Positions 26,726 through 62,996 of a stretch of DNA of 64,000 nucleotides are shown one piece after another (positions within the stretch are counted from its first letter, which is position 1; every line of letters begins with the position of its first letter). A program made the position numbers and the translations under genes. The DNA lies in the NCBI RefSeq assembly GCF_900090225.1, contig NZ_FMHY01000002.1:6262001-6326000 (forward strand). The letters are read 5' to 3'. Below the pieces are notes generated by a model that did not search any database, had not been told where the DNA came from, and saw only the letters and a list, made by a program, of their open reading frames with translations. Origin of the DNA: Micromonospora eburnea (lineage in GTDB: Bacteria; Actinomycetota; Actinomycetes; Mycobacteriales; Micromonosporaceae).

Positions 26726-26775
26726 CCACCGCATAACCCGTGGTCGGTGGGGCACCCGGTGCCTACGATCGCGTG

Positions 26776-29445
26776 ATGACCGATACGGCGAGGACGGCCC
26801 GCGCCGGCGTCCCCGAGCGTCCGACCCTGGACGGCATCGAGGAGACCTGGGCGCGCCGCTGGCAGGAGGAGGGCACGTACACGTTCGACCGGGCGCAGCC
26901 GGCGGTACGGGGCCGCGGCGCGGCGTCAGACGCGCCGAGCCCGGATGGCCGCAGGACGGACGTGTACTCGATCGACACCCCGCCGCCGACCGTATCGGGC
27001 GAGCTGCACATGGGGCACGTCTTCTCGTACACCCACACCGACACGGTGGCCCGGTTCCAGCGGATGCGCGGCCGGACGGTGTTCTATCCGATGGGCTGGG
27101 ACGACAACGGCCTGCCCACCGAACGGCGGGTGCAGAACGTGTACGGGGTGCGCCCGGACCCGGCCCTGCCGTACGACCCGGACTGGCAGCCACCGGCCAC
27201 GCCGGTGAGCGAGGCGGCCCGGAAGGATCCGGTGCGGATCTCCCGGCTCAACTTCATCGAGCTGTGCGAGCGCCTGACGGCGGAGGACGAGCAGGTCTTC
27301 GAGGCGCTGTGGCGGCGGCTCGGGCTGTCGGTGGACTGGTCGCTGACGTACACCACGATCGGGCGGGTGGCCCGGGCGACCAGCCAGCGGGCGTTCCTGC
27401 GCAACCTGGCCCGGGGCGAGGCGTACCAGGCGGAGGCGCCGACGCTCTGGGACGTCGGGTTCGCCACCGCGGTGGCGCAGGCCGAGTTGGAGGACCGGGA
27501 GCGGCCCGGCGCGTACCACCGGCTGCGGTTCTCCGGGCCGGGCGGGCGCGAGGTGCTGATCGACACCACCCGACCGGAGCTGCTGCCGGCCTGCGTGGCG
27601 CTGGTCTGCCACCCCGACGACGAGCGGTACGCGGACCTGGTCGGCGCTTCGGCGCGTACCCCGGTCTTCGGGGTCGAGGTGCCGGTGCGCGCGCACCCGC
27701 TGGCGGACCCGGCCAAGGGCACGGGCATCGCGATGGTCTGCACGTTCGGTGACCTGACCGATGTGACCTGGTGGCGGGAGCTGCGACTCGACACCCGCGT
27801 GGTGATCGGCCGGGACGGTCGGCTGCTGCCCGAGCCGCCCGCCGGCGTGCCGGCGGAGCCCTACGCCGCGCTGGCCGGGCAGACCGTGAACGGTGCCCGG
27901 CGGACGATGGTCGAGCTGCTGGCCGACGCGGGTGACCTGGTCGGCGAGCCGCGGCCGATCACCCACCCGGTGAAGTTCTACGAGCGCGGCGACCGCCCGC
28001 TGGAGATCGTCTCGACCCGGCAGTGGTATCTGCGCAACGGCGGCCGGGACGCCGGGCTGCGCGAGGAGCTGCTGGCCCGGGGCCGCGAGCTGCGCTGGGT
28101 GCCGGAGCACATGCGGCACCGCTACGAGCACTGGGTGGGCGGCCTGACCGGGGACTGGCTGGTCAGCCGGCAGCGCTTCTTCGGCGTGCCGGTGCCGGTG
28201 TGGTACCGGCTCGACGACGCTGGCGAGCCGGACTGGGCCCACCCTCTCACACCGGACGAGTCGATGCTCCCGATCGACCCGTCCGCCGAGCCGCCACCCG
28301 GCTACCAGGAGGCGCAGCGCGGGTTGCCGGGCGGCTTCGTCGGCGACCCGGACGTGCTGGACACCTGGGCCACCTCGTCGCTGACCCCGCAGATCGTCGG
28401 CGGGTGGGAGACGGACCCGGAGCTGTTCCGCATGGTCTTCCCGATGGACCTGCGCCCGCAGGGGCAGGAGATCATCCGTACCTGGCTGTTCGCCACGGTG
28501 GTCCGCTCCCATCTGGAGCACGGGGTGCTGCCCTGGCGGGACACGGTGCTCTCCGGCTGGATCCTCGACCCGGACCGGAAGAAGATGTCCAAGTCCAAGG
28601 GGAACGTGGTCACCCCGATGGACCTGCTGGTGCAGCACGGCTCGGACGCGGTCCGCTACTGGGCGGCGAGCGGCAAGCCCGGCATGGACCTGGCATTCGA
28701 CCCGGCGCAGATCAAGGTGGGGCGGCGGCTCGCCACCAAGCTGCTCAACGCCTCAAGGTTCGCGCTCGGGCTGGGCGCCGCCGACGCGTTGCGCGCCCCG
28801 TACGACAACTCCAGCTCGGCGCGTCTGACGCCGCGCCGCGACCTGGAGCTGTCGGCCACCGAGCCACTGGACACCGCGATGCTCGCCGAACTCTCCGGCG
28901 TGGTCGGGGTGGCGACGTCCGCGTTCGACGGGTACGACCACACCGCCGCCCTGATGGCGACGGAGGCGTTCTTCTGGCGGTTCTGCGACGACTACATCGA
29001 GCTGGTGAAGGAGCGGGCCTACGGCTCCGGGCCGGGCGCCGACTCGGCCCGGGCGGCACTGGCCACCGCGCTCTCGGTGCAGTTGCGGCTGTTCGCCCCG
29101 GTGCTGCCCTTCGTCACCGAGGAGGTCTGGTCCTGGTGGCGGTACGGCTCGGTGCACCGCGCGCCGTGGCCCACCACGTACGAGGTGGGCCGGGCGGTGC
29201 AGGCCCCCGGGGATCCGGAGCTGCTGCGGCTGGCCGCCGACGCGCTGGGCCAGGTGCGCCGGGCCAAGTCGGAGCGGAAACTGTCGATGAAGGCCGAGGT
29301 GCCGCTGGCCGAGGCGCTCGGCCCGGCGGCCGTGCTCGACCGGCTCACCCTGGTCGCCGACGACGTCCGGGCGGCCGGCCGGATCGCCAAGCTCGACCTG
29401 CTGCCGGATCGCACGCCGGAACTGGTCGTCGCCTGCGCCTTTTGA
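26776..29445 (+). CDS. valS: Valyl-tRNA synthetase, archaeal-like type
   Basis: Class I enzyme charging tRNA-Val, 889 residues. The HIGH motif is HMGH at 78-81 in [15 protein letters not shown] and KMSKS is at 603-607. Segments such as [20 protein letters not shown] and the absence of the C-terminal coiled-coil arm place it with the archaeal/alpha-proteobacterial ValS type rather than the common bacterial form. TACGAT lies 6 bp before the ATG, a leaderless signal. Two copies of a 52-bp palindromic repeat lie in frame, at residues 42-59 and 676-693. An ATG at 26740 would add 12 residues. Confidence 0.93.
26900..26951 (+). repeat. 52-bp palindromic element, copy A (in valS)
   Basis: Core CGCGGCGCGGCGTCAGACG at 26914-26932, continuing CGCCGAGC, is shared with copies B, C and D. 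The flanking arms have diverged (CGGCGGTACGGG and CCCGGATGGCCG). The element encodes the [14 protein letters not shown] stretch, which precedes the catalytic domain of ValS. Confidence 0.6.
28803..28854 (-). repeat. 52-bp palindromic element, copy B (in valS)
   Basis: Arms CGACAACTCCAG and CTGGAGCTGTCG surround the shared core in the opposite orientation to copies A, C and D. It encodes [18 protein letters not shown], inserted between the catalytic and anticodon-binding parts of ValS, in frame. Confidence 0.75.
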
Positions 29446-29450
29446 GATGT

Positions 29451-29579
29451 AAGGAGGGGCCCCCTGTTAACGCCTGGCGTATAGCAGGGTTCCCCTCTCA
29501 CACCCGTACGTTCCGGGCCCGGTGCGTGTTAAGAGGGGGCCCCTGCTCTACCGCAGGCGTTAAGAAGGGGCCCCTCCTT
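29451..29579. repeat. Two inverted copies of a ~50-bp GC-rich repeat after valS
   Basis: A copy starting AAGGAGGGGCCCC (29451) and running to about 29498 is followed, after about 30 bp, by an inverted copy (about 29530-29579). Both contain a TTAACGCCT core and a CAGGG block, and together they make a large imperfect hairpin between the valS stop and the convergent ABC-2 permease. It probably acts as a bidirectional terminator. A third copy follows galT at 37037. Confidence 0.75.
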
Positions 29580-29584
29580 TCAAC

Positions 29585-35966: not shown

Positions 35967-37036
35967 GACGTACCCGGATAGAGCTGGCCGACGGCCGCGA
36001 GTTGATCTACTTCGACGAGCGGGACGACGCGGTCCGTGACCAGCCGGACCGCCGCGAGCTGCCCCCGCCGCCGGCGGCGTCCCAGCTCCGGTACGACCCG
36101 CTGACCGACGAGTGGGTGGCGGTGGCGGTGCACCGGCAGACCCGCACCTTCCTGCCCCCGGCCGACCAGTGCCCGCTCTGCCCCTCCCGGGGCGACCGGC
36201 TCAGCGAGATCCCCGCCCCCGACTACGACGTGGCCGTCTTCGAGAACCGGTTCCCCTCGCTGAGCCAGCACGTCGCCGAGGAGCCGGCCGAGATCACCCC
36301 GTTCACCCCGGTCCGCCCCGGGCGCGGCAAGTGCGAGGTGGTCTGCTTCACCGACGACCACAACGCCTCGTTCGCCAGCCTCTCCCCCGGCCGGGTGCGC
36401 ACCGTGCTCGACGCCCTGGCCGACCGCACCACCGCGCTGGGCGAGCTGCCCGGGGTGGAGCAGATCTTCCCGTTCGAGAACCGGGGCGTGGAGATCGGGG
36501 TGACCCTGCACCATCCGCACGGCCAGATCTACGCGTACCCGTTCGTCACGCCGCGGACCCGGACCATGCTGGCCGCCGCCCGCCGGCACTTCGAGCGCAC
36601 CGGGGGCAACCTCTACGCCGACGTGCTCACCACCGAACGCGCCGCCGGCGACCGCGTGGTGGCGAGCAACGAGCACTGGACGGCGTACGTGCCGGCGGCG
36701 GCCCGCTGGCCGTTCGAGGTGCACGTGGCACCGCACCGCCCGGTGCCGGACATCCCGGCGCTGGACGACGCCGAGCGGGACGCCTTCGGGCCGCTCTACC
36801 TCGACGTGCTGCGCCGTTTCGACGGGCTGTTCGACCTGCCGATGCCCTACATCGCCGCCTGGCACCAGGCCCCGGTGCACGTCGACCGGGAGCTGGGGCA
36901 CCTGCACCTGCAGCTGTTCAGCATCCGGCGCGCCAAGGACAAGCTGAAGTACCTGGCCGGCTCCGAGTCGGGGATGGGCGTGTTCATCAGCGACGTCGCC
37001 CCGGAACGCGCCGCCGAACTGCTCCGCACCGCGTGA
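35963..37036 (+). CDS. galT: Galactose-1-phosphate uridylyltransferase
   Basis: Leloir-pathway enzyme exchanging UMP between UDP-glucose and galactose-1-phosphate, 357 residues. The active-site His motif HHPHGQ is near residue 190, a zinc-type CPLC pair is near residue 70, and the second domain ends with HVDRELGHLHLQLFS. The GTG start overlaps the DeoR gene by 4 bp. galE and galK are not in the window downstream; a copy of the GC-rich interspersed repeat follows immediately after the stop codon. Confidence 0.94.
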   Translation: MRRTRIELADGRELIYFDERDDAVRDQPDRRELPPPPAASQLRYDPLTDEWVAVAVHRQTRTFLPPADQCPLCPSRGDRLSEIPAPDYDVAVFENRFPSLSQHVAEEPAEITPFTPVRPGRGKCEVVCFTDDHNASFASLSPGRVRTVLDALADRTTALGELPGVEQIFPFENRGVEIGVTLHHPHGQIYAYPFVTPRTRTMLAAARRHFERTGGNLYADVLTTERAAGDRVVASNEHWTAYVPAAARWPFEVHVAPHRPVPDIPALDDAERDAFGPLYLDVLRRFDGLFDLPMPYIAAWHQAPVHVDRELGHLHLQLFSIRRAKDKLKYLAGSESGMGVFISDVAPERAAELLRTA

Positions 37037-37090
37037 AAGGAGGGGCCCCTTCTTAACGCCTCCGGTAGAGCAGGGGCCCCCTGTTAACAC
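37037..37090 (+). repeat. GC-rich ~50-bp interspersed repeat after galT
   Basis: Starts AAGGAGGGGCCCC directly after the galT stop and continues through a TTAACGCCT core to CAGGGGCCCCC and TTAACAC. It closely matches the two copies after valS. The GGGGCCCC blocks can form a hairpin, so it may terminate galT transcription. Confidence 0.75.
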
Positions 37091-37287: not shown

Positions 37288-37449
37288 GACGCGACCGGCG
37301 GAGACGAGGGCCCGCCCACCGAAGCGACCGGCCCGCCGGCGAAGACGACGGAGCCCGCCCACCGAAGCGACCGGCCCGCCGGCAGAGACGACGGAGCCCG
37401 CCCACCGAGACGACCGGCCCGCCGGCGAAGACGACGGAGCCCGCCGGCG
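37288..37449. repeat. Three 43-bp tandem repeats between galT and icd
   Basis: Units begin at 37321, 37364 and 37407, with a partial copy from 37288. Each contains GACCGGCCCGCCGGC and ACGACGGAGCCCGCC. The second motif is identical to one arm of the icd terminator hairpin, so the arm has been multiplied. No open frame there looks coding; with the interspersed repeat this accounts for much of the 449-bp gap. Confidence 0.8.
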
Positions 37450-48263: not shown

Positions 48264-48794
48264 TCAGGTGGCGAGCGGCGGGCCCCGGGTGGGCAGGGTG
48301 CCGCGCGGCGGCAGCGGCACGGCCGGCGACCGGTAGCGGATCGAAGAAACGACCTGGTCGGCCGGGCCACCGAGGCGCACGGGCATGGCCGGCAGCAGAT
48401 CGTCCGGTCCGTCGGTGAGTACGACGCCAGCGCGGTGGTCACCGCAGTTGCCGCCGGAGACTGCCGTCCGCGCGTCCGGCGGAGCGTCGAGGTGCGCGGG
48501 GCGCGCCACGACGACTCGGGGGTCGCCGGGGGGAGGGGCGGGACGGTCCGGCGTCACGGCCGGTACGTCGACGACGACTCCAGGTCGCGGCGCGGCGTCA
48601 GACGCGCCGGGCCGGAGCCGTCGCAGGGCCCATCCGTCCGGTGCATGAACGGACGGCCCGCCGTGGACGATCGACCGCTGCGCGGCGGTGACCACCGCGC
48701 CGGGCTCAGGGCTCTCCGCGCGGGTGGGCCCGCCGAGACCGACCAGGACGAGCGCCAGCGCGACGACGGCGGTCAACCGGTCGAGCACGCGCAT
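48264..48794 (-). CDS. Secreted hypothetical protein, possibly frameshifted
   Basis: A 176-residue protein with an N-terminal signal sequence (MRVLDRLTAVVALALVLVGL, then a likely AxA-type cleavage site after TRAE). The remainder is Pro-, Ala- and Val-rich without recognisable domain. Copy C of the 52-bp palindromic element lies inside it and encodes [13 protein letters not shown]. The stop at 48264 is not followed by a terminator, whereas a strong hairpin follows the stop at 48103 in another frame, so the 3' end may have shifted. Confidence 0.45.
   Translation of the reverse strand: MRVLDRLTAVVALALVLVGLGGPTRAESPEPGAVVTAAQRSIVHGGPSVHAPDGWALRRLRPGASDAAPRPGVVVDVPAVTPDRPAPPPGDPRVVVARPAHLDAPPDARTAVSGGNCGDHRAGVVLTDGPDDLLPAMPVRLGGPADQVVSSIRYRSPAVPLPPRGTLPTRGPPLAT
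48572..48623 (+). repeat. 52-bp palindromic element, copy C
   Basis: Arms CGACGACTCCAG and CCGGAGCCGTCG flank the shared core (CGCGGCGCGGCGTCAGACG at 48586-48604). It lies within the secreted hypothetical gene, read in a different frame from copies B and D. Confidence 0.75.
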
Positions 48795-51471: not shown

Positions 51472-52029
51472 ATGCAGCCCGGTTACCCCGGTCAGGACCC
51501 GTACGGCCAGCAGCCGCCGCAGGACCCGACCGCCCCGCAGCAGCCCCACGACCCGTACGCCCAGCCGCCCGCGGCGCCGCAGTACGGGCAGCAGCCCACC
51601 TCCGGCCAGCCGTACGGGCAGCAGCCCACCTCGGGGCAGCCGTACGGCCAGCAGCCCACCTCCGGCCAGCCGTACGGCCAGCAGCCCTACCAGGACCCGT
51701 ACGCGCAGCAGCAGCCGTACGGCGCCGCGCCGGCCTACCAGAACCCCGGCTACCCGCAGCCGCAGGGCCAGCAGAACACGCTGGGCCTGGTGTCGATGAT
51801 CCTCGGTATCGCGTCAATCCCGCTGATCTGCTGCTTCTACCTCGGCATCCCGGTCGGCATCGCCGCCGCGATCACCGGTCACCTGGGTCGGCAGAAGGCC
51901 GCGCAGGGGCTGGCCAACAACGAGGGCCAGGCCAAGGCCGGCTTCATCTGCGGCATCGTCGGCGCCGGCCTGGGCATCCTGCTGCTCATCCTGGTCGTGG
52001 TGGCCAACGTCAGCCTGCCCGGACAGTAA
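51472..52029 (+). CDS. DUF4190 membrane protein with proline/glutamine-rich repeats
   Basis: A 185-residue protein. Residues 1-100 are a Pro-, Gln-, Gly- and Tyr-rich tail with tandem copies of a 10-residue unit (QPTSGQPYGQ). Two hydrophobic helices follow (LGLVSMILGIASIPLICCF and AGLGILLLILVVVANV), separated by a loop with GRQKAAQGLANNEGQAKAG, as in DUF4190 proteins. Function is unknown. The frame is well supported by the repeats and codon use. Confidence 0.8.
   Translation: MQPGYPGQDPYGQQPPQDPTAPQQPHDPYAQPPAAPQYGQQPTSGQPYGQQPTSGQPYGQQPTSGQPYGQQPYQDPYAQQQPYGAAPAYQNPGYPQPQGQQNTLGLVSMILGIASIPLICCFYLGIPVGIAAAITGHLGRQKAAQGLANNEGQAKAGFICGIVGAGLGILLLILVVVANVSLPGQ
51583..51687. repeat. 30-bp tandem repeat in the DUF4190 gene
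   Basis: Three and a half copies of a 30-bp unit beginning TACGGGCAGCAGCCCACCTC encode the QPTSGQPYGQ repeats. Units start at 51583, 51613 and 51643. Copy number could vary by slippage between strains. Confidence 0.8.
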
Positions 52030-56116: not shown

Positions 56117-57019
56117 TCAGCCCACCCGGCACCGGCCGGCCGCGTACCCGACGACGGCCCGCATGATCTCTTCCTCAGATCGATCGGCGAAGTTGGCCGT
56201 GGCGGTGAAGCCGGTGCCGAAGAACGCCTGCTGCAACCCGGAGTCCAGCGCGGTGAAGGCGCCCAGCCCGGTGCCGGCGCGTGGATCGCGCGGCTTGACG
56301 CAGACCATCTTCTCCAGGGACCAGCGCCGCAGGTAGATCCGGTCGATCGCCGCCCAGGGCAGCCAGATCGCCTGCCCCCGGGTCGGCCGGGTCTTGATCC
56401 ACAGCCCGTCCGGGCCGACCGCCAGCACCGGACCGCCGGAGGAGACCAGCCAGAGCTGCAGGCCCATCAGCAGCGCGAAGAACAGCATGATCACCGGGAT
56501 GACGAGCAGCACCGCGGCGTCGCCGTCGGCCGACACGGCCAGGCCCAACGGGCAGGCGATGACCAGGCCGACGAGCAGGGTGACGGCGCCGAGGAGCAGC
56601 GCCCGCTTGCCCAGGTTCGGCCGGGCCACGAACGGCAGGTCCTCCGGTATCCGCTTCGCCGTCCGCGTCACCGGCGGCGGCTGCGCCGGCCAGCCCGCCC
56701 CCGGTCCGGTCGGGTACGCCTGCTGCCCCGGCGCGGGCCAGCCCGGACCCGGCTGCTGTGGCCCCGGCGCGGGCTGCGGGTGCGCCGGCCAGCCCGGACC
56801 CGGCTGCGGCTGCCCCGGCACCGGCCAACCCGCCCCCGGCTGCGGTTGCGGTTGCGGTTGCCCAGACCATCCCGGGGCCGGCTGCGGCGGCCCCGGCGCG
56901 GGCTGCGGATGCCCCGACCAGCCCGGACCCGGCTGCGGCGGTACGGGCCAGGCGGGCTGGCCCGTAGGCGGCGTCCATCCGCCGGCGGGGTTCGGCTGCG
57001 GGTGGGGCGGCTGGGTCAC
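56117..57019 (-). CDS. Proline-rich membrane protein with PH-like C-terminal part
   Basis: A 300-residue protein. Residues 1-125 are a low-complexity Pro/Gln/Gly/Trp tail with many GPGW- and AP-containing repeats. Two helices follow (ALLLGAVTLLVGLVIACPLG; AVLLVIPVIMLFFALLMG), then a beta-rich domain (GPDGLWIKTRPTRGQ, IWLPWAAIDRIYLRRW) resembling a PH-like module. The GTG at 57019 has GGAGG upstream; upstream frame extensions are not protein-like. Function is unknown. Confidence 0.7.
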   Translation of the reverse strand: MTQPPHPQPNPAGGWTPPTGQPAWPVPPQPGPGWSGHPQPAPGPPQPAPGWSGQPQPQPQPGAGWPVPGQPQPGPGWPAHPQPAPGPQQPGPGWPAPGQQAYPTGPGAGWPAQPPPVTRTAKRIPEDLPFVARPNLGKRALLLGAVTLLVGLVIACPLGLAVSADGDAAVLLVIPVIMLFFALLMGLQLWLVSSGGPVLAVGPDGLWIKTRPTRGQAIWLPWAAIDRIYLRRWSLEKMVCVKPRDPRAGTGLGAFTALDSGLQQAFFGTGFTATANFADRSEEEIMRAVVGYAAGRCRVG

Positions 57020-60497: not shown

Positions 60498-62996
60498 TCA
60501 GAGCTTGTCGATCGGGGCGTGCCGGAGCACCAGCCACAGGGTCTGGTCACCGAAGTCGATCTGCGCCCGGGCGCCGGGGCCGTGCCCCTCCACCGCCAGC
60601 ACCCGGCCGAGGCCGTAGCGCTGGTGGTTCACCCGGTCCCCCACCGACACCTTCGGCGCCTGCTTCAGCTCGCTGGCGGTGGACAGCCGGCTGGCGTCCA
60701 CCCCGAGCCGCCTCGCCAGCTGGGTCGCCTTGGGCGTACCCCCGGTGAAGCCGCCGGGCGCGCGGTCCGCGCGGCCGCCGACGCCCCCGCCGCCGCCGGC
60801 CCACGAGGTGTACGAGCCCTCGGTGCGCTCCCAGCGGACCAGCGCCGGTGGCAGCTCCTCCAGGAATCGCGAGGGTGGGTTGTACGCCGGCTGCCCCCAG
60901 GCCGACCGGGTGACCGCCCGGGACAGGTAGAGGCGCTGCCGGGCCCGGGTGATCCCCACGTACGCCAGCCGCCGCTCCTCCTCCAGCTCGCGGTTGTCGC
61001 CCAGCGAGCGCAGGTGCGGGAAGACGCCGTCCTCCAGGCCGCTCAGGAAGACCACCGGGAACTCCAGGCCCTTGGCCGTGTGCAGCGTCATCAGGGTGAC
61101 CACGCCCTGGTGGTCGGGGTCGTCGCTGGGGACCTGGTCGGCGTCGGCGACCAGCGCGACCTGCTCCAGGAAGCCGGCCACGGTGGCCCGCTCCCCCTCC
61201 TCGCCCAGCGCCTCGATCCGCTCGGTGTACTCGCGGGCGACGCTGACCAGCTCCTGGAGGTTGTCCACCCGGCCGGCGTCCTGCGGGTCCAGGCTCTCCT
61301 CCAGCTCGGTGAGGTAGCCCGAGCGGGTCAGCAGCGCCTCCAACACCTCCTCGGGAGTGCCGGTCACGGCCAGCTCGCGCGCGGAGTCGAGGAGGGCGAC
61401 GAACTCGGCGATCCCGTTGGCCGCCCGGGTCGAGATCCCGGGCGCGTCCTTGGCCCGCCGCAGCGCCGCGCCGAAGGAGATCCGGTCGCGGCTGGCCAGC
61501 GCCTCCACGCACGCCTCGGCCCGCTCACCGATGCCCCGGCGGGGGGTGTTGAGGATCCGACGCAGGCTGACCGTGTCGTCGTCGTTGACCACCGCGCGCA
61601 GGTAGGCCAGCGCGTCGCGGACCTCCTTGCGCTCGTAGAAGCGCACCCCGCCGACCACCTTGTACGGCAGGCCGACCCGGATGAACACCTCCTCGAAGAC
61701 CCGGGACATGGCGTTGGTGCGGTAGAAGACGGCCACGTCACCCGGGCGGGTGTCACCGGCGTCGACCAGCCGGTCGATCTCCCGGGCCACCCAGTCCGCC
61801 TCGGCGTGTTCGGTGTCGGCCACGTAGCCGACGATCTGCTCGCCGGCCCCGGCGTCGCTCCAGAGCCGCTTGGGCTTGCGGGAGGTGTTCCGGTCGATCA
61901 CCGCGTTGGCGGCGTTGAGGATGGTCTGGGTGGAGCGGTAGTTCTGCTCCAGCAGGATCGTCCGGGCGTCGGTGAAGTCGCGCTCGAACTCCAGGATGTT
62001 GCGGATGGTCGCGCCCCGGAACGCGTAGATCGACTGGTCGGCGTCGCCGACCACGCACAGCTCCGCCGGCTCGACCCCCTCGGTGCCGGAGACCAGCTCC
62101 TTGATCAGCACGTACTGGGCGTGGTTGGTGTCCTGGTACTCGTCGACGAGGACGTGCCGGAACCGGCGTCGGTAGCTCTCCGCGACGTGCGGGTGCGACT
62201 GGAGCAGGTGCACCGTCGCCATGATCAGGTCGTCGAAGTCCAGGGCGTGCGCCTCGCGCAGCCGCCGTTGGTAGAGCGTGTAGGCCTCCGACAGGGCCCG
62301 CTCGTTGGGGCCCTTGGCCCGGGTCGCGAACTCCTCCGGATCGACCAGTTCGTTCTTCAGGTTGGAGACCTGGGCCGCCAGCCCGCGCGCCGGGTAGCGC
62401 TTTGGATCGAGGTCCAGCTCCCGGGCGACCAGTTGCATCAGCCGCCGGGAGTCGTCCGCGTCGTAGATCGAGAAGGTGGACTTCAGGCCGGCGTGCTCGT
62501 GCTCGGCGCGCAGGATCCGGACGCAGGCCGAGTGGAAGGTCGACACCCACATCAGCCGGGCACGCGGGCCGACCAGCGCGGCCACCCGGTCCTTCATCTC
62601 ACCGGCGGCCTTGTTGGTGAACGTGATCGCGATGATCTCGCCCGGGTGCACCCCCCGCGCGCCGAGCAGGTACGCGATCCGGTTGGTCAGCACCCGGGTC
62701 TTGCCGGAGCCGGCGCCGGCCACGATCAGCAGGGGGGAACCGGCGTGGGTGACCGCGTCCCGCTGCGGGCCGTTCAGCCCGGCGAGGAGGTCCTGCGGGA
62801 CCGACCGGGCCGACGGCTCCAGGTTGCCGCGCGACGACAGACGCGCCGAGCTGGAGCCGTCGCCGGCCGAGGGTGCGGTGGCCGGATCATGGCCGCCCGC
62901 CGGGCCGGAGTTGTCGCCTCCGGGCCGGTGCGGCGAGGTCGGCCGGGAGGAATCCGGCGCGGGCGGGGACGCGGGAATGTCGAAGAGAGGATGCAT
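60498..62996 (-). CDS. pcrA: ATP-dependent DNA helicase PcrA/UvrD
   Basis: 3'-5' helicase of superfamily 1A acting in repair and replication, 832 residues. Motif I is VAGAGSGKT, motif II DEYQDT, motif III GDADQSIYAFRGA, motif IV LEQNYRST, motif V TLHTAKGLEFPVVF and motif VI VGITRARQRLYL. A Tudor-like C-terminal segment (KVSVGDRVNHQRYGLGRVL) is typical of PcrA. The unconserved N-terminal 70 residues contain copy D of the 52-bp element (DGSSSARLSSRGNLEPSA, residues 45-62). Confidence 0.95.
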   Translation of the reverse strand: MHPLFDIPASPPAPDSSRPTSPHRPGGDNSGPAGGHDPATAPSAGDGSSSARLSSRGNLEPSARSVPQDLLAGLNGPQRDAVTHAGSPLLIVAGAGSGKTRVLTNRIAYLLGARGVHPGEIIAITFTNKAAGEMKDRVAALVGPRARLMWVSTFHSACVRILRAEHEHAGLKSTFSIYDADDSRRLMQLVARELDLDPKRYPARGLAAQVSNLKNELVDPEEFATRAKGPNERALSEAYTLYQRRLREAHALDFDDLIMATVHLLQSHPHVAESYRRRFRHVLVDEYQDTNHAQYVLIKELVSGTEGVEPAELCVVGDADQSIYAFRGATIRNILEFERDFTDARTILLEQNYRSTQTILNAANAVIDRNTSRKPKRLWSDAGAGEQIVGYVADTEHAEADWVAREIDRLVDAGDTRPGDVAVFYRTNAMSRVFEEVFIRVGLPYKVVGGVRFYERKEVRDALAYLRAVVNDDDTVSLRRILNTPRRGIGERAEACVEALASRDRISFGAALRRAKDAPGISTRAANGIAEFVALLDSARELAVTGTPEEVLEALLTRSGYLTELEESLDPQDAGRVDNLQELVSVAREYTERIEALGEEGERATVAGFLEQVALVADADQVPSDDPDHQGVVTLMTLHTAKGLEFPVVFLSGLEDGVFPHLRSLGDNRELEEERRLAYVGITRARQRLYLSRAVTRSAWGQPAYNPPSRFLEELPPALVRWERTEGSYTSWAGGGGGVGGRADRAPGGFTGGTPKATQLARRLGVDASRLSTASELKQAPKVSVGDRVNHQRYGLGRVLAVEGHGPGARAQIDFGDQTLWLVLRHAPIDKL
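62811..62862 (+). repeat. 52-bp palindromic element, copy D (in pcrA)
   Basis: Perfect 12-bp arms CGACGGCTCCAG and CTGGAGCCGTCG flank a core that differs from the others at a few positions. It lies in the disordered N-terminal extension of PcrA, read in the same frame as copy B. Confidence 0.75.

Follow-up and report, generated by a model that had tools for sequence, protein, structure and literature searches.

As far as the sources drawn on here describe them, protein-inserted palindromes come mainly from Rickettsia and Wolbachia, and also from Methanocaldococcus jannaschii and several bacteria that carry REPs. The Rickettsia palindromic elements (RPEs) and the palindromic repeats of Wolbachia are reported in-frame in housekeeping genes and also between genes (PMC2229807, PMC10969869, PMC2996958), with lengths of 105–146 or about 150 bp given for the RPEs. 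RPE-4 and RPE-6 are classed among the short CGTC REPs (PMC3733652), so that they would lie outside the ~100–150 bp range too. CGTC REPs are described as short hairpins that are mostly found between genes and sometimes inside them (Di Nocera et al. 2013, PMC3733652). The same paper gives them stems of 8–9 bp, a terminal CGTC left unpaired and, in most cases, CCA tails, reports them as lacking a dedicated transposase, and names UvrD/Rep helicase and tRNA synthetase genes as hosts of REPs in general; in its main text no word starts with Micromonospora, Salinispora or actinobacter.

Here we describe a family of short palindromes from Micromonosporaceae, four copies of which lie in the window, i.e. 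the whole stretch of 64,000 nucleotides of Micromonospora eburnea that was analysed (Table 1). The family is nonautonomous and REP/RPE-like, and a little under half of its copies lie inside genes, to which they add ~18 amino acids in-frame. The original prediction, made from the window alone, had compared the copies with the Rickettsia elements, pointed to their high-GC actinobacterial setting, taken them to lie always within coding sequence, and extrapolated from their density to hundreds of copies genome-wide. The setting (72% GC) was right, and so was the comparison in that we observed dispersed palindromes, an in-frame gain of 17–18 codons, empty sites in congeners, several reading frames and housekeeping hosts. 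The exclusivity to coding sequence and the copy number in the window's own genome, however, did not hold. A literature search of open-access papers, which included the core letters and the encoded peptide, returned no description of the element family.

Like the RPEs and the Wolbachia repeats, as these are described, the element is a palindrome that lies in-frame in housekeeping genes and also in intergenic DNA. As with RPEs, it was found in-frame in unrelated protein genes and was absent from their orthologues, but at 52–54 nt it is shorter than ~100–150 bp, and it has two stems and one better-folding strand. With the CGTC REPs as published it shares the short hairpin and the location inside and between genes, and no dedicated transposase was found for it either; unlike them, it has stems of 12 and 7 bp, and CGTC abuts only 5 of 142 aligned copies. 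GTAG REPs and REPINs are likewise nonautonomous hairpins, both being thought to be moved by Y1 transposases. Unlike those associated with a RAYT, the element was abutted by GTAG in 0 of the 142 copies, and no copy was found beside 30 Y1 loci. MITEs, too, are small, nonautonomous, inverted-repeat elements for which in-frame fusions have been reported, whereas the present element has no constant target duplication, and in the loci scanned no longer element sharing its ends was recognised. The tests made place the element outside both the GTAG and the CGTC REPs, and outside the RPEs of usual length. By analogy, we would regard it as the same kind of phenomenon as the RPEs and intragenic REPs, set apart from most RPEs by its length.

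Table 1. Copies of the 52-bp element in the window and the reading frames that hold them (window positions)
Feature	Position	Strand	Remarks
Copy A	26900..26951	-	older, diverged copy in the N-terminal region of valS; 65.7 bits
Copy B	28803..28854	+	reference orientation; 81.8 bits, the best in the genome
Copy B, inserted unit	28801-28854		TA + 52 bp = 54 nt
Copy C	48572..48623	-	in-frame in a 176-aa minus-strand ORF (from translation); 75.4 bits
Copy D	62811..62862	-	in the N-terminal extension of pcrA/uvrD (from translation); 72.1 bits
valS, valyl-tRNA synthetase, host of copies A and B	26740..29445	+	Pfam PF00133, PF08264; PDB 1gax match
176-aa ORF, host of copy C	48264..48794	-	signal-peptide-like N-terminus by eye; coding status uncertain
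pcrA/uvrD1 helicase, host of copy D	60498..62996	-	Pfam PF00580/PF13361; PDB 9dci UvrD1 match

All four copies were located in the window sequence exactly where the original prediction had placed them. The 20-base core occurred four times at ≤3 mismatches, compared with 0.23 expected occurrences and a maximum of two in 100 shuffles. The near-perfect 12-bp arms ascribed to copies B, C and D were complete only in D (12/12 pairs kept, as read off its sequence; B, 11/12; C, 10/12), and the diverged copy A kept 9/12 pairs. The reading frame is kept by copies A and B in valS and by copy D in pcrA, and the use of both orientations and of several reading frames was borne out. Copy C had been assigned to a secreted hypothetical protein; its ORF is in-frame and has a signal-peptide-like start, but it has no Pfam match and was left uncalled by our codon-usage gene model. 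Insert B forms residues 688–705 of ValS, between the matches to the catalytic domain (to 653) and the anticodon-binding domain (from 711). Insert A lies upstream of the first core match of ValS, and insert D upstream of the UvrD helicase domain match, which starts at residue 74.

We searched the window's own genome (7,185,375 bases) with a covariance model built from 21 of its copies. Among the best 150 candidates, which were scored, 30 places were found at E≤4×10−6 and 38 at E<5×10−4. This is a clear excess of copies, the lack of which would have spoken against a dispersed element, but in 7.19 Mb it is far from the predicted hundreds. The core alone was a noisy genome probe (46 matches at ≤3 mismatches vs 21 for the reversed pattern). 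With about 0.3 copies expected per 64 kb, the four copies of the window form a local cluster [Poisson P(≥4)=3×10−4, with the window fixed in advance and 34 copies per genome assumed]. Four weak matches to the model all scored 35.1 bits (G000:C2:1028, 5132643, 7162147 and 7167826). All four may be copies of another repeat, and three of them are located close to the large contig's ends.

In the genus, where the best 48 candidates per genome were scored, 99 of 121 genomes matched at E≤1×10−4. Copy number was bimodal, with 0–10 copies in 109 genomes and from 15 to at least 48 in the other 12. The order and family scans were based on the best 29 candidates per genome. All 20 matching genomes among 200 of the order belonged to Micromonospora, and within the Micromonosporaceae 46 of 200 genomes and 9 of 44 genera matched (E≤1×10−4). 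The named carriers include Rugosimonospora, Planosporangium, Plantactinospora and one Dactylosporangium MAG. Rugosimonospora africana holds at least 150 copies, 150 being the number of candidates scored. Natronobiforma was rejected as a carrier: it has one exact core match, which we attribute to chance because the model found no match in the whole genome at E≤1×10−4.

For the structural analysis, loci L031–L150 were fetched by an exact 20-base core match among the matches listed, each with at least one core, and were searched with a 52-bp profile. This gave 142 copies at ≥30 bits, compared with none in the reversed sequence; 55 of these are from R. africana and five are orthologous to copy B, and the copies are not all independent. 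Their consensus is TN-CGACNNCTCCRGCTC-GGCGCG-TCTGACGC-CGCGCC-GCGACCYGGAGNNGTCG, and the conservation of the core is partly built in since the loci were drawn by it. The unit of ~54 nt consists of 5′-TN and a 52-nt hairpin with 12-bp outer arms, an asymmetric bulge, an inner GGCGCG/CGCGCC stem and an 8-nt loop. A T stands at position −2 in 96 of the 142 copies. The inner stem is nearly invariant and without double changes in this set drawn by exact core. Among 118 distinct copies, the outer arm was paired in 82.3% of cells, and pairings slid by 1–2 positions were paired in only 18–41%. Double-changed cells numbered 197 vs 73.7 in shuffles (maximum 97), and 21 vs 8.5 for the own-genome copies; these shuffle controls take no account of relatedness among copies.

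The two strands of the hairpin are not equivalent, a feature that goes beyond the original prediction. On the reference strand we counted 208 A·C cells (G·T on the complement) vs 41 G·T cells, and the complement strand was the more stable one in 113 of the 118 distinct copies with RNA parameters and in 117 with DNA parameters. The own-genome copies, which were drawn without an exact core, gave a mismatch asymmetry of 55 to 16 and a better-folding complement in 27 of 29 cases. Much of the asymmetry stems from column pairs 5/48 and 6/47: with these removed it was 67 to 39, and for the non-Rugosimonospora type it was 24 to 20. Because the complement strand folds better, selection seems to act on a folded single strand, either RNA or ssDNA, beyond a double-stranded palindrome.

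Insertion boundaries were derived from orthologous DNA of congeners at 13 sites, where the element is present in some related species and absent at the same place in others. Eleven of these sites had a net gain of either 54 or 51 nt, and at 12 the gain was a multiple of three. Site B of valS was empty by exactly 54 nt (TA+52) in 26 of 29 relatives, the remaining three carrying the insert. At site A the net gain was 51 nt; 23 of the 29 relatives were empty, three had a full-length insert and three a shortened one (31, 40 and 49 nt). A gain of 54 nt was also found at L156 (4/4 relatives shown), L170 (3/3) and L134 (one relative), and a gain of 51 nt at L157 (4/4, called noncoding), L162 (4/4), L153 (4/4), L160 (3/4, one relative being too weak), L146 (one relative) and L121 (two). 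At L152, which is called noncoding, the gain was 45–52 nt and mostly 52 nt over six relatives, and at L165 it was 48 nt in one relative with a further 6-nt gap nearby. The values for L134, L146 and L121 come from part of the pairwise rows. From the pairwise set we excluded rows from L095, L111, L213, L217 and L218, rows with a gap >20 or trims >25, pairs of valS loci, and own-genome copies paired with valS or pcrA loci. Two empty-site rows were dropped, L154 (the relative holds a partial copy) and L319 (low score). Among the sites with gene calls in the window's own genome, only the two mentioned are in noncoding DNA, so the multiple-of-three gain elsewhere may reflect selection rather than mechanism.

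The comparison of orthologues that the original prediction had called for thus gave a clean boundary for insert B, but not for insert D, because the pcrA relatives were too variable at this site. As for the objection that orthologues from distant genera might carry the same peptide at the same place, insert B is lacking from 26 of the 29 congeners and from the one more distant sequence compared, the solved ValRS 1gax. A constant target duplication was not detected at any of the 13 sites. The 2 nt on either side agreed in 26 of the 142 copies, some of which are tandem; among 39 high-scoring copies they agreed in 7. A 2-bp duplication, which tandem arrays (TC-52-TC-52-TC) suggest, was rejected, as single copies do not suggest it. 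Close pairs of copies (<400 bp) were head-to-tail in 17 of 17 cases, nine of them spaced by 54, and a tandem triple lies within one called CDS at L095. The empty alleles shown lack the TA in the case of valS B, L157 and L162; in that of L152 they may contain the TG. For several of the 51-nt sites, the simplest reading of the alignments would be that TN+52 was inserted and three target bases were lost.

We consider it probable that the element is a nonautonomous hairpin of the Micromonosporaceae, akin to REPs and Rickettsia palindromic elements, that is still mobile or was so until recently, and that a trans-acting enzyme moves it in single-stranded form. The substrate would be the folded complement strand, i.e. 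an ssDNA hairpin ending in NA-3′, and the trans-acting enzyme would insert it into the target. Insertions in genes would survive as 17–18 extra residues and may be tolerated because the element is stop-poor and most gains are multiples of three. The movement of copies is deduced from the comparison of genomes, and the element is most likely selfish DNA without a host function. The net gain is not constant (54 vs 51 nt, in addition to L152 and L165), which is a point against this explanation. No mobilising enzyme was found in the searches described below. Away from full copies, the collected loci gave 20 left-half and 16 right-half matches, none of which was recognised as the end of a longer, autonomous element.

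A Y1 transposase is a natural candidate for the mobiliser. The element could be of the REP/RAYT or IS200/IS605 type, in which a Y1 HUH transposase would excise and paste the ssDNA hairpin and would since have been lost from many hosts. A single-strand hairpin, the preference for one strand and the lack of a target duplication agree with this. We searched 121 genomes of the genus and five further genomes with PF01797 and found Y1 genes in 6 of the 12 high-copy and 23 of the 109 low-copy genomes, a weak correlation with copy number (Spearman 0.30, p=0.001, uncorrected for relatedness); R. africana has one Y1 gene. Six high-copy genomes, however, gave no match (the window's own genome, G022, G053, G085, G087 and G116), the flanks of the 30 Y1 loci scanned were free of copies, and the GTAG tag was absent as stated above. 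Despite the weak correlation, RAYT/IS200 was thus not supported as a required mobiliser, and we regard the Y1 explanation as unlikely. A bolder proposal, which we put forward tentatively and think equally doubtful, is that the element may represent a new class of mobile hairpin that travels as a single folded strand, with no target duplication and no Y1 transposase. It would constitute a portable cassette of 17–18 codons that is used in four frames, can multiply in tandem and feeds new loops into the proteins of a whole family.

The main other rival is insertion by error, in which the hairpin would be captured, or copied from a template, when breaks are repaired or replication switches templates, no dedicated enzyme being involved. 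The variation of the gain among sites (54, 51, 45–52 and 48 nt) and the apparent loss of about three target bases at several of them would be explained in this way. The 52-bp unit, the preferred T at −2 and the bimodal copy number, in contrast, point to a specific process, which makes error a rather poor candidate.

Several observations bear on the age of the insertions. Identical 52-mers with different flanks were found in Micromonospora yasonensis (four copies) and in R. africana (six copies), which shows recent spread. Orthologous copies, on the other hand, were on average slightly more alike than their flanks (93.6% vs 89.6% identity; element higher in 24 of 30 pairs, many of which are valS B), so several insertions are old. 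Copy B appears on four separate branches of the valS tree, its orthologues being identical at 51–52 of 52 bases. This scatter would call for an exchange of alleles between species, or else for more than one insertion at the same site; it suggests that valS alleles were exchanged between Micromonospora species, or that the site is a hot spot. A purely vertical history, with old insertions shuffled by recombination and no mobility in living species, would accommodate the patchy valS B and those shared sites at which the copies diverge (valS A, L157/L036/L109 and L162/L119). We judge it improbable, since single genomes hold identical copies whose flanks differ, 12 genomes are high-copy and sites are empty in relatives. 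As a separate observation, the 33 best own-genome places leaned in orientation, with + prevailing 10 to 7 in the first half and − prevailing 13 to 3 in the second (Fisher 0.03). Were the origin close to the contig ends, such a lean would agree with a mechanism tied to replication; neither origin nor terminus was located from the GC skew of four genomes, each sampled in 20 stretches.

The placement of 146 copies was judged by our own codon-usage gene caller with random placement as a control; this set includes orthologues of one insertion, valS B being counted six times. Contrary to the claim that the element always lies inside protein-coding sequence, only 64 copies were wholly in a called CDS, while seven were partly inside and 75 outside, compared with 82.6%, 7.6% and 9.7%, respectively, for random placement. 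The element is thus under-represented in genes, yet far from excluded from them, and about five-fold above random outside genes; REPs are mostly extragenic. Of the 30 own-genome copies, 13 were in a CDS, three partly so and 14, including copy C, outside. A functional RNA or DNA hairpin under host selection (a terminator, an mRNA stability element or a protein-binding site) could account for this five-fold excess, for the covariation of the arms and for the small excess in convergent gaps, which hold 11 of 73 intergenic copies (15%) vs 8% of random gap positions, but we rejected it as very improbable: the other gene layout was near that of random gaps (38 unidirectional and 24 divergent of the 73; 54% and 38% at random), intergenic copies had no strand preference (17 to 21), Rfam gave no match in the window, and 22 of the 121 congeners lack the element at E≤1×10−4.

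Five of the six frames of the element are usually stop-free, and copies in CDSs used four of them (same/2, 24; same/0, 18; opposite/1, 12; opposite/2, 10). The TGA-containing frame was unused, as expected. A fifth, mostly open and arginine-rich frame occurred in 0 of 22 opposite-strand cases (P about 1×10−4), which would fit selection on the peptide. Among the hosts are the housekeeping genes valS and pcrA and, in R. africana, a pheT-like one. Of the inserts in ten further host proteins picked from the list, three were inside a domain match (alpha-amylase, FAD-binding and acyltransferase). The other seven were outside the best domain matches, although those in a histidine kinase and a PhoD protein may still cut a domain. 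The element may explain inserts of 17–18 residues in alignments of Micromonospora proteins. As its host family is free-living and comprises low- and high-copy congeners, movement and effects on proteins can be tested in ordinary strains.

The window also contains other repeats. A 57-bp repeat with GTTAAGAAGGGGCCCC-type arms, another short palindromic repeat, is present at 29526–29582 and 37034–37090 as a 96% inverted match, and a third stretch related to it lies at 29443–29498. Runs of short, G+C-rich direct repeats were found at 51499–51721, many spaced by 30 bp, and at 56644–56948, many spaced by 36–51 bp. At 37310–37445 there are three tandem repeats with a 43-bp spacing, which are 96% identical.
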